Source of the DNA: an uncultured Ruminococcus sp.
Lineage (GTDB): Bacteria > Bacillota > Clostridia > Oscillospirales > Acutalibacteraceae
Length of the DNA stretch: 64,000 bases
Reading direction: 5' to 3'
Assembly (NCBI GenBank): GCA_902790475.1
Contig: CADASG010000009.1
Span: forward strand, 1-64,000
The position numbers were made by a program, and so were the translations under genes. This document shows positions 38,849 to 46,533 of this stretch, piece by piece. How positions within the stretch are numbered: the stretch's first letter is position 1; every line of letters starts with the position of its first letter. A model generated the notes under the pieces. That model saw only the letters and a program-made list of their open reading frames with translations, ran no database searches and was not told the origin of the DNA.

Positions 38849-39880
38849 ATGTCAGTAAAAGTTGCAATTAACGGCTTCGGCCGCATCGGTCGTCTGGCTT
38901 TCAGACAGATGTTCGGCGCTGAAGGTTATGAAGTAGTAGCGATCAACGATCTTACCGATCCCAAGATGCTCGCTAACCTGCTCAAGTACGATACAGCTCA
39001 GAAGGGCTATTGCGGTACGATCGGCGAGGAGCTCCACACTGTTGAGGCAGGCGAGAACTCCATTATCGTTGACGGCAAGGAGATCACAATTTATGCTAAG
39101 CCCAACGCTGCAGAGCTTCCCTGGGGCGAGATCGGCGTAGACGTTGTTCTCGAGTGCACAGGCTTCTACTGCTCCAAGGCTAAGAGCCAGGCTCACATCG
39201 ACGCAGGCGCAAAGAAGGTCGTTATCTCCGCTCCCGCAGGCAAGGATCTGCCCACTGTTGTATTCAGCGTAAACGAGGATATCCTCACCGCTGAGGACAC
39301 CATCATCTCCGCAGCTTCCTGCACAACCAACTGCCTCGCTCCCATGGCTGACACTCTCAACAAGTACGCTCCCATCCAGAGCGGTATCATGAGCACCATC
39401 CACGCTTACACCGGCGATCAGATGATCCTTGACGGTCCCCACAGAAAGGGCGACCTTCGCCGTGCAAGAGCAGGCGCTGCCAACATCGTTCCCAACTCCA
39501 CCGGTGCTGCTAAGGCTATCGGTCTGGTAATCCCCGAGCTCGACGGCAAGCTCATCGGCTCCGCACAGCGTGTTCCCGTTCCCACCGGCTCCACCACTAT
39601 CCTCACAGCTGTTGTTAAGGGCACAGACGTTACCGTTGAGGGCATCAACGCTGCTATGAAGGCTGCTGCTTCCGAAAGCTTCGGCTACAACGAGGATCCC
39701 ATCGTTTCCTCCGACGTTATCGGTATGCGTTACGGTTCTCTGTTCGACGCTACCCAGACCATGGTTTCCAAGGTTGCAGACGATCTGTATGAGGTTCAGG
39801 TCGTTTCCTGGTATGACAACGAGAACTCCTACACCAGCCAGATGGTAAGAACCATCAAATACTTCGCAGAGCTCGGCTGA
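38849..39880 (+). CDS. gap: Glyceraldehyde-3-phosphate dehydrogenase, type I
   Basis: NAD-dependent glycolytic enzyme of 343 residues. The Rossmann motif INGFGRIGR lies near 7, the catalytic [12 protein letters not shown] has Cys near 158, and [23 protein letters not shown] and the C-terminal [13 protein letters not shown] are typical. Codon choice is visibly more biased (CTC, ATC, GGC, GTT) than in neighbours, as expected for a highly expressed gene. A long open frame on the opposite strand is a by-product of this bias. Monocistronic with strong AGGAGG. Confidence 0.97.
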
Positions 39881-40090: not shown

Positions 40091-40119
40091 TTGAAATCCA
40101 CATAATTTTTTGGTATTAT
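40091..40119 (+). promoter_or_regulatory. Promoter of the GlgB-like gene
   Basis: TTGAAA, 17 bases, TATTAT, about 55 bases before the start. Confidence 0.55.
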
Positions 40120-40175
40120 ATATATTAGGAAATTAATCTAAAATACCATAACTGTTTGTGACAGGAGTTGAGTTT

Positions 40176-42071
40176 ATGGAGCACGGCTTTAACGATATGC
40201 GTGAGGCTTTCAAGCTGTTTACCGACGGCGACAGCGTCCGCGCTTATGAGTTTCTCGGAGCGCGTGTTGCAAGCCGGGATGAAGAGAGCGGCGTGCTGTT
40301 CCGCGTATGGGCTCCCAACGCGCTGAGCGTTTCGGTGGTCGGTGACTTCAACGACTGGAACAAAACCGCCCACTTTATGAAACGTGCGTATGAAGGGATA
40401 TGGGAGCTGTTTGTACCCGGTATCCCGGAATTCGGACTGTATAAATACTGCATTGAAACTCCGTGGTTCGAGAAGATACTGAAATCCGACCCATACGCCT
40501 ATTACGCGGAGGTGCGGCCGGACAACGCTTCGCGCGTGTACGATATCGAGGGCTATGAATGGCATGACAGGGAGTGGCTTGAAAAACGCGCCGCGACCGA
40601 TCTGACGCGCGAGCCCGTGAATATCTATGAGCTTCACGCAGGCACGTGGAAGCGCAACCCCGACGGAAGCTTTTACACCTACACGCAGATCGCCGACGAG
40701 CTGGTGCCGTATATGACGGACATGCGCTATACGCATGTCCAGCTCATGCCGATAATGGAGTACCCCTTCGACGGAAGCTGGGGGTATCAGACAACGGGCT
40801 ACTTCGCCCCGACCGCGCGTTACGGCGAGCCCAAGGAGTTCATGTATCTGGTGGACAGGCTCCATCAGGCAAACATAGGCATAATCCTGGACTGGGTACC
40901 CTCCAACTTTCCCAAGGACAGCTTCGCGCTGGCGAAGTTTGACGGAACGGCACTGTATGAGGACGAAAATCCGCTCAAGGGCGAACGTCCCCTGTGGGAC
41001 ACCTGTCTGTTTGATTACTCAAAACCCGAGGTAGTCAGCTTTTTGATCTCGAACGCGAACTTCTGGCTGGAAAAGTATCACGCCGACGGCATTCGCTTAG
41101 GAGCGCTGTCGTCAATGCTTTACCTCGACTACGCCAAGCAGCGCGGAGAGTGGATACCAAACGCTCTGGGAGGCAAGGAGAATCTTGAGGCTGTCGCCTT
41201 TGTTAAAAAACTAAACGAAACCGTACACGCCCTGCACCCCGGTATCATAATGTGCGTGGAGGAGGTCACCTCATGGCCGAAGCTGACCTACAGCGTTGAA
41301 TCGGGCGGACTGGGCTTTGACTACAAGTGGAACATGGGCTGGATGAACGACATGCTCCATTATATGACGCTGGATTCCCAGTGGCGGCCGTTCAACCACG
41401 ATAATCTTACCTACAGCTTTTTCTACGCTTTTTCCGAGCATTTTCTGCTTCCGCTTTCGCACGACGAAGCGTCTGGCGGCAAGGGCTCCCTGCTCAGCCG
41501 AATGCCCGGCGGCAGCAAAAAGGGCTTTGACGACCTGAGGGCTTTCCTGACCTATATGTACGCTCATCCCGGCAAGAAGCTGGTGTTTATGGGCATTGAA
41601 ACCGGTCAGACGCAGGAGTGGAACGAAGAAACCGTGCTCGACTGGCAGACTTCCGACAACATCGCGCGCGAACAGCTCCACGTGTTCTTCAAGGAGCTGA
41701 ACAAGCTTTACATAGAAGCAAAGCCGTTTTATACGATGGACACCATCTGGAAGGGCTTTGACTGGATCCACCACGACGACTTCACCAACTCCGTCATAGC
41801 CTTCAAGCGCAGCGACGAGGAGGGCAACGAGATAATCGCCGTTTGCAACTTCCGTCCCGTTAAGCACGAGCGCTACAAGATAGGCGTGCCTGTTTACGGC
41901 GTATATGACGAGATCTTTAACTCTGACGACGAACGCTTCGGCGGCACGGGCGTGAGCAACGGTCACCGCATCATCACAGAACAGATACGTCTCCACGGCT
42001 ACAACCAAGGACTCGCTCTCACCCTCCCCCCCATGAGCGTTATATATTTAAAATGTATTGAGAAGCTTTGA
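40176..42071 (+). CDS. GlgB-like 1,4-alpha-glucan branching enzyme with a changed active site
   Basis: A 631-residue protein with the GlgB layout: CBM48 domain (GVLFRVWAPNALSVSVVGDFNDW near 45), GH13 barrel, C-terminal beta domain. The catalytic residues have drifted. Region I is DWVPSNFP, with Asn244 where GlgB has His. Region II is GIRLGALSSMLYLDY, with Gly309 (codon GGA at 41100) in place of the nucleophilic Asp. Glu362 (VEEVTSWP) and His429-Asp430 (LSHDEA) remain, but the following VVHGK-type loop is ASGGK. It should not branch glucan by the usual mechanism. It may bind glycogen or regulate. It is first in the glycogen cluster; AGGAG sets the start. Confidence 0.85.
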   Translation: MEHGFNDMREAFKLFTDGDSVRAYEFLGARVASRDEESGVLFRVWAPNALSVSVVGDFNDWNKTAHFMKRAYEGIWELFVPGIPEFGLYKYCIETPWFEKILKSDPYAYYAEVRPDNASRVYDIEGYEWHDREWLEKRAATDLTREPVNIYELHAGTWKRNPDGSFYTYTQIADELVPYMTDMRYTHVQLMPIMEYPFDGSWGYQTTGYFAPTARYGEPKEFMYLVDRLHQANIGIILDWVPSNFPKDSFALAKFDGTALYEDENPLKGERPLWDTCLFDYSKPEVVSFLISNANFWLEKYHADGIRLGALSSMLYLDYAKQRGEWIPNALGGKENLEAVAFVKKLNETVHALHPGIIMCVEEVTSWPKLTYSVESGGLGFDYKWNMGWMNDMLHYMTLDSQWRPFNHDNLTYSFFYAFSEHFLLPLSHDEASGGKGSLLSRMPGGSKKGFDDLRAFLTYMYAHPGKKLVFMGIETGQTQEWNEETVLDWQTSDNIAREQLHVFFKELNKLYIEAKPFYTMDTIWKGFDWIHHDDFTNSVIAFKRSDEEGNEIIAVCNFRPVKHERYKIGVPVYGVYDEIFNSDDERFGGTGVSNGHRIITEQIRLHGYNQGLALTLPPMSVIYLKCIEKL

Positions 42072-42772: not shown

Positions 42773-43984
42773 ATGCAAATGTTCCCAAAAAAGGAGGTTG
42801 TCGCCATGCTGTTGGCAGGCGGTCAGGGCTCACGTCTTGGCGTGCTTACAAAAAAGCTGGCAAAACCTGCCGTACCTTTCGGCGGTAAGTACAGAATAAT
42901 TGACTTTCCGCTCTCTAACTGCGTCAACTCCGGCATTGAGGCGGTAGGAATTTTAACACAGTACCAGCCGCTGATCCTCAATGAGTATATCGGCAACGGT
43001 CAGCCGTGGGATTTAGACGGTATGCACTCGGGCGTGAATTGCCTGAGCCCGTATCAGGCGATCCAGGGCGCCGACTGGTATTCCGGCACTGCAAACGCTA
43101 TTTTCCAGAACATCAACTATATAGAGCGCTACGACCCCGATTACGTGGTGATCCTCTCGGGCGACCATATCTATAAGATGGACTACAACAAAATGCTCGA
43201 GTATCACAAGGAAAAGAACGCCGCCTGCACCATTGCGGTCATTGACGTTCCGATCGAAGAAGCGTCGCGCTTCGGCATCCTCAACACCCATGAGGACGGC
43301 GAGATATATGAATTTGACGAAAAGCCCGAGCACCCCAAGAGCACCAACGCGTCCATGGGCATCTATATTTTCAGCTGGAAAGAGCTTAGAAAGTATTTGA
43401 CCGAGGACGACGCGCTTGAAAATTCCAGCCACGATTTCGGCAAGGACGTGCTCCCTGCCATGCTCAACGCAGGCGAGAGAATGTACGCCTATCCCTTTGA
43501 GGGCTATTGGAAGGACGTCGGAACGATCGACAGCCTTTGGGAAGCCAATATGGATCTGCTCGACCCCAACGTTACACTCGACCTCAAGGACGTGTATTCA
43601 CGCAATCCCATGATGCCTCCGCACTATGTTTCCGCCGACGCGAATATTCAGAATTCACTGATCGCAGACGGCTGCAACGTCGAGGGCGATCTGGAATTCT
43701 CTATCCTGTTCTCGGGCGTCACCGTGGGCAAGGGCGCTACCGTCAATTCCTCGATCATCATGCCCGGTGCAGTGATCGAAGAGGGCGCGGTAGTCAAGTT
43801 TGCAATAGTCGCCGAAAACACCGTGATCAAAAAGGGCGCAAGAGTCGGTCAGAAGCCCGAAGAGGTCGATGACAAGGGAACTTGGGGCATCGCGGTCATC
43901 GGCGAAAACACCGTTATCCCCGAAAACGCCGTGATCAAGGCAAAAGAAATGATTGATAGTGAGGTGGCAGCAAGTGAGAAGTAA
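42773..43984 (+). CDS. glgC: Glucose-1-phosphate adenylyltransferase, catalytic subunit
   Basis: Makes ADP-glucose from glucose-1-phosphate and ATP, the committed step of glycogen synthesis. The 403 residues comprise a nucleotidyltransferase domain and left-handed beta-helix repeats. [29 protein letters not shown] (pyrophosphorylase signature and ATP site) lies near 14-42. [14 protein letters not shown] holds the metal Asp near 128, and [10 protein letters not shown] follows near 182. The beta-helix spans about 290-380. A strong AGGAGGT precedes the ATG. It overlaps glgD by 11 bases, which fits a heteromeric GlgC/GlgD enzyme. Confidence 0.95.
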
Positions 43985-45083
43985 TGATGTATTAGGCTTT
44001 ATTTTTGCCGGCACACTGGACGAAAAGATCCCCGAGCTTGCCGCGTCGCGAACCACCGCAAGCATACCTGTCGGCGGCAAGTACAGACTCATTGACTTTG
44101 TGCTTTCCAATATGTCGAACTCGGGCGTAAACAACGTGGGCATCGTGGCGAAGAAAAACTTTTTGTCTCTCACCGACCACGTGGGCAACGGCAGCGCCTA
44201 TGACCTTTCCAAAAGAAGAAGCAACCTGACCCTGCTCACTCCCTACGACGGCAAGGCGTTCTCAAATTACGTTGAGACGATATACAACATGCACGGCTAT
44301 ATCGAGCATTGCAGAGAGGAGTATATCCTGTTCTCCACCGGCAATGTAGTTACTAATTTTGACTACGGCGCGCTGTTTGATTTCCATTCAAGGCGCAATG
44401 CCGATATCACGATGATCTATAAAAAAGGCGTGATCCCGGCAGGCTACGACCGCCCCGTTACGCTGGAGATCGGCGAAAACAACAAGGTCACAAAGGTGCT
44501 GGTCAAGCCCGAGAACAACGGCGAAGTCGATAACCATTTTTACGGCTCCGTACTGGTAAAAAAGGATCTGCTGATGACCGAGATCCGCAACGCGCTCAGC
44601 GTCAACGAGCTCGATATCAAAAAGCTGCAGCAGCAAATGGCTGAAAAATACAACGTTTACGCTTATGAAAACAAGGGCTACACCGCGTTTATCAGCTCGA
44701 TAAACTCATACTTTGACTTCAACATGGATCTGATGAAGAAGGAAGTGCGCGACGAGCTGTTCAGTCCAAAGCGTCCGATCTATACCAAGGTGCGCGACGA
44801 CGCTCCGTCACGCTACGGTCTTAACAGCAAGGTCAAGAACTCCATTATCGCTCAGGGCTGCGTAATTGACGGCGAGGTGGAAAACTGCGTGATCTCCAAG
44901 GGCGTTTACGTTGACGAGGGCGCAAAGCTCTCCAACTGCATCGTGATGCAGGACACCAAAATAGGCAAAGACACAAACCTCAACTATGTAATTATTGATA
45001 AGGATGTGGCCATTAAGGACGGACGTTCGCTGATGGGCTTTGATTCTTATCCGATATATATCGCGAAAAAATCAGAAGTTTAA
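43974..45083 (+). CDS. glgD: Glucose-1-phosphate adenylyltransferase, GlgD subunit
   Basis: Regulatory or helper subunit of the Firmicute two-gene ADP-glucose pyrophosphorylase. The 369 residues are related to GlgC, but the N-terminal loop is [21 protein letters not shown] instead of GGQGSRL, and the metal-site GDH is replaced by [12 protein letters not shown] catalytic role alone is therefore unlikely. [20 protein letters not shown] and the C-terminal beta-helix repeats are kept. The start is GTG inside the end of glgC, after GAGGTGG. Confidence 0.92.
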
Positions 45084-45105: not shown

Positions 45106-46533
45106 ATGAGAATATTATACTGTGCGTCCGAAGCCAATCCGTTCTGCGGCAGCGGCGGACTTGCCGACGTTGCGGGCAGCCTTCCCCATACCCTTTGCAG
45201 AAAGGGTCAGGACTGCCGCATCGTGGTACCGCTTTACGGCACCATTCCCCAGGACTTGAAAAACCAGATGAACTTCATCACCAACTTCACCGTTCCGGTG
45301 GCATGGCGTCACCAGTACTGCGGCTTGTTCTGGGCGCGCTGGAATGACTGCACCTACTATTTCATTGACAATGAATACTACTTCAAGCGCGGCACGCTCT
45401 ACGGTCACTATGACGACGCGGAAAGATTCGCTTTCTTCTCACGCGCTATCCTTGAGATGCTGCCCTATATCGACTTCCATCCCGATATCATCCACTGCAA
45501 CGACTGGCAAACCGCGCTGGTTCCCGTATACTACTATCTGTTCTACTCGCACAGACCCTGGTATTATAATATCAAGAGCTTATTCACCATCCACAACATC
45601 CAGTATCAGGGCGAGTACGGCTGGGAGGTCAACACCGAGTGCGTCGGTATCCCTGCCAACGAGTGCGGCATTTTGGAGATGAACGGCAAGCTGAACATGA
45701 TGAAGGGCGCTATCGAAACCTCGACGCGTGTTTCAACCGTTTCGCCGAGCTACGCCGCAGAGATCAAAGATCCGTGGTACAGCTGGGGTCTGCACGACGA
45801 GCTGAACCTGCGCCACTACAAGCTTTGCGGAATCAAGAACGGCATCGACCAGGCAAGCTACGACCCTGCTACCGACTATCAGCTCTACTGCAACTACACC
45901 AAGGAGGACATGAGCGGCAAGGGCGAGTGTAAGCGCCGCCTTCAGGAGCGCCTCACGCTCGAGGTCAACTGGAGCATCCCGCTGGTCGCAATGGTCACCC
46001 GTCTGGTATCTCACAAGGGTCTGGATCTGGTTCGCATGGGTCTGGAAGAGCTGATGAACACCGAGAACATGCAGTTTGTTATCCTCGGCTCTGGCGACAA
46101 GGAATATGAGGACTACTTCAACTATATGCAGGGCAAATATCCCGGCAGACTGATCTTCTGTCACGGCTTTGTACCCGAGCTCGCCAGAAAGATCTACTCG
46201 GGCGCCGATATCTTCCTGATGCCCTCAGCGCAGGAGCCCTGCGGTCTTTCTCAGATGATCGCGCTGCGCTACGGCACTATCCCCGTTGTTCGCGAGGTAG
46301 GCGGCTTGAAGGACTCCGTATTCGATTCCGCCGACAACTACGGCAACGGCTTCACTTTCAAGAACTACTACACCGCAGACATGCAGCACGCCGTAAGACG
46401 CGCACTGTGGGGTATCCAGGACAACGAAGGCTGGCACCAGCTCATGTGGCGCGCAATGATGAGCGACAACAGCTGGGAACGCTCCGCACAGGACTATATC
46501 AACGTATACAGCGACACCCTCAACTGGGCATAA
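45106..46533 (+). CDS. glgA: Glycogen synthase, GT5
   Basis: Elongates alpha-1,4-glucan from ADP-glucose. The 475 residues have two Rossmann domains. HCNDWQTALVP, FTIHNIQYQGEYG, TRLVSHKGLDLV and MPSAQEPCGLSQMIALRYG (with catalytic Glu) are intact. The KxGGL motif near the N-terminus reads CGSGGLADVAGSLP, so residue 15 is Gly where E. coli has the ADP-glucose-binding Lys15. Variants without this Lys seem to occur in other Clostridia (recollection, not checked). AGGAGG precedes the ATG, 22 bases after glgD. A terminator follows. Confidence 0.93.
   Translation: MRILYCASEANPFCGSGGLADVAGSLPHTLCRKGQDCRIVVPLYGTIPQDLKNQMNFITNFTVPVAWRHQYCGLFWARWNDCTYYFIDNEYYFKRGTLYGHYDDAERFAFFSRAILEMLPYIDFHPDIIHCNDWQTALVPVYYYLFYSHRPWYYNIKSLFTIHNIQYQGEYGWEVNTECVGIPANECGILEMNGKLNMMKGAIETSTRVSTVSPSYAAEIKDPWYSWGLHDELNLRHYKLCGIKNGIDQASYDPATDYQLYCNYTKEDMSGKGECKRRLQERLTLEVNWSIPLVAMVTRLVSHKGLDLVRMGLEELMNTENMQFVILGSGDKEYEDYFNYMQGKYPGRLIFCHGFVPELARKIYSGADIFLMPSAQEPCGLSQMIALRYGTIPVVREVGGLKDSVFDSADNYGNGFTFKNYYTADMQHAVRRALWGIQDNEGWHQLMWRAMMSDNSWERSAQDYINVYSDTLNWA

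Follow-up and report, generated by a model that had tools for sequence, protein, structure and literature searches.

What might a homologue of the glycogen branching enzyme GlgB do at the head of a glycogen cluster when the residue that performs catalysis is missing? The question is posed by pseudo-glgB, which lies within a window of 64,000 nucleotides from an uncultured Ruminococcus sp. (contig CADASG010000009.1) in the gene order rny, gapA, pseudo-glgB, glgC, glgD, glgA (Table 1). The reading frame, for which an alternative GTG start is possible at 40158, translates into 631 residues with no inner stop, and Pfam assigns to it a CBM48 domain (residues 27–108), part of the GH13 barrel model and an all-beta C-terminal domain. 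Frame and CBM48 domain are thus intact, as an earlier note made from the letters of this DNA had stated, and the protein has the CBM48–barrel–beta-domain architecture of GlgB in a structure that is predicted. It matches GlgB from end to end, is up to 45% identical to solved branching enzymes and passes all three curated GlgB models (NCBIfam NF003811, NF008967 and TIGR01515), with 847.3, 834.2 and 767.7 bits against cut-offs of 741, 577 and 463.95. The AlphaFold model, predicted from an input of 46 sequences, has a mean pLDDT of 91.4 and a pTM of 0.92, and Foldseek matches it to the branching enzyme of Cyanothece with a query-normalised TM of 0.96.

Table 1. Positions in the window of pseudo-glgB, its altered codons and its neighbours
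Feature	Position	Strand	Basis or remark
pseudo-glgB, GlgB homologue without nucleophile, 631 aa	40176..42071	+	translation, Pfam, curated models, structure model
Codon GGA, Gly309, replacing the nucleophilic Asp	41100..41102	+	translation; Gly in 49/49 close orthologues
Codon AAC, Asn244, replacing the region I His	40905..40907	+	translation; Asn in 49/49 close orthologues
CBM48 domain, intact	40254..40499	+	glucan-binding by family only
gapA	38849..39880	+	upstream neighbour; same place in many relatives
glgC, ADP-glucose pyrophosphorylase catalytic subunit	42773..43984	+	name from the earlier note; order conserved in relatives
glgD, non-catalytic modulatory subunit of GlgC in Firmicutes	43953..45083	+	role from an excerpt of PMC9093745
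glgA, glycogen synthase	45106..46533	+	order conserved in relatives
Candidate sigma-70-like promoter, TTGAAA-17-TATTAT, TG before the second hexamer	40091..40119	+	consensus match only; upstream of pseudo-glgB

The conserved regions of pseudo-GlgB read DWVPSNF (I), DGIRLGALSS (II), CVEEVTSW (III) and SHDEASGGKGS (IV). Region II aligns without gaps to the solved Cyanothece enzyme ('dgirlgalssmly' against 'dgirvdavasmly'), which places Gly309 at the position of the nucleophile; the earlier note had read both this substitution and the Asn244 that replaces the region I His, and translation and alignment agree with it. The remaining catalytic positions, D239, R307, E362, H429 and D430 (presumably E. 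coli D335, R403, E458, H525 and D526), are kept. Two hallmarks of GlgB, the nucleophilic Asp and the region I His, are therefore missing, and the acid/base Glu (E362) and the His-Asp pair of region IV (H429, D430) are present. Given the loss of the nucleophile, pseudo-GlgB is very likely non-branching. Some residual branching of the normal kind, with water, a nearby carboxylate or a displaced nucleophile standing in for the Asp, would be in keeping with the preservation of the rest of the site and of the predicted fold, but is hardly to be expected, since the nucleophilic Asp is essential in GH13 and no acidic residue stands beside the position in the displayed rows of the clade described below.

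The substitutions are shared widely among relatives. When 151 genomes of the genus were searched by similarity alone, with residues ignored and a match threshold of E <= 1e-278 at which partial copies fall out, 49 contained a close orthologue, and all 49 carry Gly309, Asn244, Arg307, His429 and Asp430. Asp239 and Glu362 are each found in 48/49 (the former is absent in L059, the latter in L072) and the Glu following His-Asp in 44/49. The earlier note would have abandoned its reading had the Gly been absent from all relatives; it is present in every one of these orthologues, and a sequencing error as the source of Gly309 is ruled out by the same 49 unselected sequences. Members of the clade are 60–83% identical to the window protein, indicating that the nucleophile-less state is old. 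The altered loop that the earlier note described after HDE is indeed present, but it is variable, with V433S in 43/47 rows and the HDE Glu gone in 5/49.

A scan of the genomes of 84,980 species for Gly in region II, using a pattern that requires an M-x-Y-x-D-Y context and so lets other contexts and other residues escape, returned 55 loci. Similarity and position place 52 of them, including those of R. bromii ATCC 27255, 5AMG and YE282 and Ruminococcus sp. FMBCY1, in the Ruminococcus bromii group, and three (L055, L058 and L076) lie outside it; we reject the notion that Gly is a common GlgB variant on these numbers. Gly is present in the 55 loci by construction and says nothing about itself, whereas Asn244, found in 47/47 full-length clade rows of the scan, is independent. 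In a 91-row tree, built with the columns around the catalytic residues removed, identical or contained rows merged and L055, L081 and L082 (<430 residues) dropped, 51 Gly proteins form a single clade (SH-aLRT 100), next to which stand the intact GlgBs of ten sister species. At seven sites where intact GlgBs have a conserved residue, all or nearly all of 47 distinct clade rows (each >=600 residues long) share a new one, namely Q189, S243, N244, G309, L311 (45/47), S312 (46/47) and S433 (43/47); the rows were grouped by their residue at 309, hence the information comes from the other six sites. Six of the seven fall within regions I, II and IV, and the replacements read as a coherent change rather than scatter. 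Tyr204 has become Phe in 24/47 rows. An essential catalytic residue has been lost, and the loss is fixed in one clade.

Retention of so much of the site might instead reflect altered catalysis, for instance the use of a beta-linked donor in a transfer reaction like that of engineered Asp-to-Gly glycosynthases; E362 would then act as acid/base, and D430 is retained. The near-invariance of E362 and D239 and the invariance of R307, H429 and D430 are what such chemistry would call for; the region I His is gone, however, L072 and L059 lack E362 and D239, no donor is known, and further residues have been lost in the parallel lineages of L170 and L247 (see below), so that we consider this very doubtful.

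Among the 52 clade loci, every one that is not cut by an edge has one long frame, L082 excepted. At that locus (L082:66-1638) the GlgB is split over two frames that overlap, through either a frame break or an assembly error. Median pairwise dN/dS (NG86, own script), from pairs that share branches and are not independent, is 0.157 for 123 pairs of the dead clade, 0.084 for 70 pairs of the intact paralogue and 0.047 for 11 pairs of the remaining intact copies. When species pairs are matched (47 pairs), the dead copy has a median of 0.184 and the intact copy one of 0.092, and the dead copy is higher in 47/47. Pseudo-GlgB is thus under purifying selection and is constrained less than the intact enzyme, and the low dN/dS together with the long frames rules out pseudogene status for the clade. 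The extra residue losses in some members indicate that constraint on the groove is incomplete. These losses and the higher dN/dS, together with the parallel losses in genomes that have another branching enzyme, would also be produced by slow decay of a redundant gene, kept as the first of the glg transcript (polarity) or just not yet lost. We regard such decay as unlikely, because dN/dS lies far below 1, the frames are long and single apart from L082, the replacement residues are fixed and not varied, and the divergence within the clade points to an old state.

The earlier note also predicted an active glgB elsewhere in the genome, of which the cluster copy would be a paralogue. Such a gene is found in the window genome (G000) on contig C35; its product is 53% identical to pseudo-GlgB and carries the signature residues, from which activity may be presumed. 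It lies outside any glg cluster and adjoins a gene that we read as acetate-kinase-like. A second GlgB is present in 31/32 distinct clade genomes, 10/10 in one set and 26/27 in another, the latter drawn from 30 of the 55 Gly loci (3 of these outliers) and the two sets overlapping by five as judged from identical coordinates. It is fragmented in G034, G087 and G088, and was not found in G081, a genome of 1.4 Mb that may be incomplete. All seven signature residues are present in 28/28 full-length second copies fetched. Judged by its sequence, pseudo-GlgB is very likely a true pseudoenzyme.

Nearly all intact GlgBs of the genus that were displayed (e.g. L035:5323-7386) bear a charged C-terminal tail, mostly rich in Lys/Ala/Pro (histone H1-like repeats) or else in Glu/Ala/Pro; the 12 dead copies displayed extend at most 9 residues beyond the core and have no such tail. 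The regular co-occurrence of the two copies and this difference in tails could also be accommodated if pseudo-GlgB formed mixed oligomers with the intact enzyme and limited branching in a dominant-negative manner; this dosage role is quite improbable, as the parallel lineages are accompanied by a branching enzyme of a different family.

The position of the dead gene is conserved. GlgB is directly adjoined by glgC in 44/55 Gly loci, and at the other 11, where glgC was not found, the stretch breaks off inside the gene or <=480 bases from the match. All eight longer clade loci (L110-L117) contain glgC, glgD and glgA, so the claim that the dead copy heads this cluster holds in the window and in relatives wherever the stretch is long enough. 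In other species of the genus, the GlgB in the cluster slot is intact in 9/10 loci (L119-L123, L125-L127 and L129), and the tenth (L124) has an intact glgB with no cluster around it. Within the clade, the syntenic copy is the one predicted to be without catalysis, and the intact copy sits elsewhere. Across 51 Gly loci, counting duplicates and two outliers, the gap from pseudo-glgB to glgC has a median of 75 bases and is <150 bases in 45 of them; in the window it measures ~700 bases. We note that this gap holds an 87-base direct repeat in two copies that are 87% identical (window:42074-42251).

A further observation concerns the GlgA of the cluster (window:45106-46533), in which GSGGL takes the place of the KTGGL motif of E. 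coli-type GlgA. GSGGL is common to all GlgAs of the genus with a matched motif (that of L072 did not match the search), and KTGGL is kept in those of L052, L053 and L055, outside the genus. The ADP-glucose-binding Lys of the cluster GlgA thus seems to be replaced.

Loss of GlgB catalytic residues has occurred in other lineages as well. The three outsiders of the Gly scan combine Gly at the nucleophile with Tyr (L058) or Cys (L076) for the region I His, or, in the partial L055, with a gap where region IV has its Asp. L170, from a genome related to that of L058, has its nucleophile replaced by Ser and its acid/base and region IV residues by Ala, and the other ten loci of the same search (L160-L169) are intact. 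A draw by order comprised 245 genomes, 169 of them with a GlgB match; 60 GlgBs were inspected from 59 genomes picked for low score or kinship, and 57 are intact. The exceptions are L247 and L259, of one genus, with Asn at the nucleophile, and L239, which keeps the nucleophilic Asp and has lost regions III and IV. Six more genomes with both types of branching enzyme (see below) yielded three intact GlgBs and three defective ones (L290, L291 and L292), which lack the region IV Asp and one further residue; in total, 65 of the 168 matching genomes of this draw were inspected, the window's own aside. On quick trees, whose long branches leave some placements unsure, loss of the nucleophile takes 6 changes (97 rows; well-supported branches force 6) and loss of any of the seven signature residues 8 changes (103 rows; 7 forced). 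In all ten cases (L055, L058, L076, L170, L247, L259, L239, L290, L291 and L292) the defective gene lies directly before glgC. The last seven are long homologues with two to five signature residues missing, and the two proteins submitted to the curated models, L282 and L283 (those of L170 and L247), are still called GlgB.

A second branching enzyme, of eukaryote type, is encoded in 9/10 of these genomes (G060, G061, G062, G110, G125, G293, G243, G298 and G301); none was found in G334, a 72% complete genome of the genus of G243. The closest solved relatives of the G061 enzyme are the human and plant enzymes, and we take this type to be GH13_8. By eye, its motifs are intact in six of the nine genomes (G243, G298 and G301 being outside the set), except that the region I motif is unmatched in one of two G110 copies; a flagged stop in the G062 match falls before the long frame found there. 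Across the order draw, the eukaryote-type enzyme is present in 35/245 genomes and stands alongside GlgB in 13/169. GlgB is defective in 5 of these 13 (G125, G293, G243, G298 and G301) and intact in 8, as against one defective (G334) among 52 inspected genomes without the enzyme (Fisher p = 0.0008, for related genomes and with the 52 not a random pick). G000, which has a dead GlgB, no eukaryote-type enzyme and a second GlgB instead, was kept outside this table. As a candidate backup, a GH57 branching enzyme was rejected, the search of five genomes giving no more than weak partial matches (one above the cut-off in G081, one below it in G062). Loss of catalysis goes with branching redundancy, which explains why the loss is tolerated and does not explain why the gene is kept.

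We suggest that pseudo-GlgB serves as a non-catalytic, glucan-binding subunit of glycogen synthesis, a reading to which we assign a probability of about 0.6 and in which we infer inactivity, binding, partner and effect alike. The ancestor of the R. bromii group would have carried glgB twice; the copy elsewhere would have retained catalysis and now bears the charged tail, and the cluster copy would have lost its nucleophile and then been retained. The CBM48 domain and the remodelled active-site groove may bind alpha-1,4-glucan chains, and the protein may dock on GlgA or GlgC/GlgD, encoded in the same cluster, or on the active GlgB, so as to position chains or tune its partner. This reading rests on the five residues invariant in 49/49 orthologues and the coherent replacement sites; on low dN/dS, a single clade and a confidently predicted GlgB fold; on the short gap to glgC in relatives and the second GlgB in 31/32 genomes; and on the parallel losses in the same slot and the precedents of ISA2 and GlgD. 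Counted against it are the approximately twofold higher median dN/dS, the extra residue losses and the incomplete constraint on the groove, as well as the ~700-base gap to glgC in the window, which co-transcription would have to span, and G081, in which no second GlgB was found. We would take it as an even bet that, wherever the cluster is glgB-glgC-glgD-glgA, GlgB has a second job independent of catalysis, that catalysis is dispensable given another branching enzyme and has been lost repeatedly within one order, and that the dead form of the R. bromii group is a remodelled glucan-binding subunit that became fixed.

The curated NCBI models score dead copies as branching enzymes, so that glycogen pathways of common gut and rumen bacteria are easily misread. 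That a dead GlgB is kept intact in the cluster across many species, with a normal enzyme elsewhere, suggests a non-catalytic job. Should the dead copy prove functional, glycogen synthesis in bacteria would possess a structural subunit comparable to plant ISA2, and the recurrent losses would be natural experiments that split the catalytic from the structural role of GlgB.

R. bromii is a starch-degrader of the gut. Table 1 of PMC5814915 lists for it an 'Amy13' with CBM48 and GH13 and the label 'glycogen' (641–639 residues in human strains, 632 in YE282), which by size, domains and label is probably pseudo-GlgB; Amy14 (767–762 and 717 residues) is probably the intact GlgB, matched by size only. 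The excerpt of that paper makes no mention of a lost nucleophile for Amy13, and in the portions of the open-licence literature searched no description of a GlgB lacking its nucleophile was met. Gut commensals are known to carry several glgB copies in one genome (excerpt of PMC10395257), and swine GlgB from Ruminococcaceae is described as an active enzyme (excerpt of PMC9960391).

Pseudo-GlgB resembles GlgB, the 1,4-alpha-glucan branching enzymes that we take to be GH13 subfamily 9, in length, CBM48 domain, barrel, C-terminal domain, cluster position, the three cut-offs passed and the TM of 0.96. It differs in belonging to a clade in which the nucleophilic Asp and the region I His are replaced, and is thus a family member by descent, its branching function being very likely lost. 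Another counterpart is plant ISA2, whose non-catalytic substitutions are kept through green plants: according to the excerpt of PMC12510319, it too is a conserved non-catalytic paralogue of an alpha-glucan enzyme of GH13, with a CBM48 domain, a lost nucleophile and faster evolution than its sisters. The fixed residue loss, purifying selection and intact paralogue (the second GlgB) that mark an ISA2-like pseudoenzyme are all found here. ISA2, however, is a eukaryotic member of the debranching family with an extra N-terminal domain and a known partner, ISA1, whereas the partner of pseudo-GlgB is proposed. GlgD, which the excerpt of PMC9093745 describes as an inactive modulatory subunit of ADP-glucose pyrophosphorylase in Firmicutes, shares inactivity and a gene beside glgC and modulates its partner, but belongs to a different enzyme family and step. 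Together, as far as these excerpts go, ISA2 and GlgD show that starch and glycogen synthesis can retain inactive relatives in the role of partners (PMC12510319, PMC9093745).
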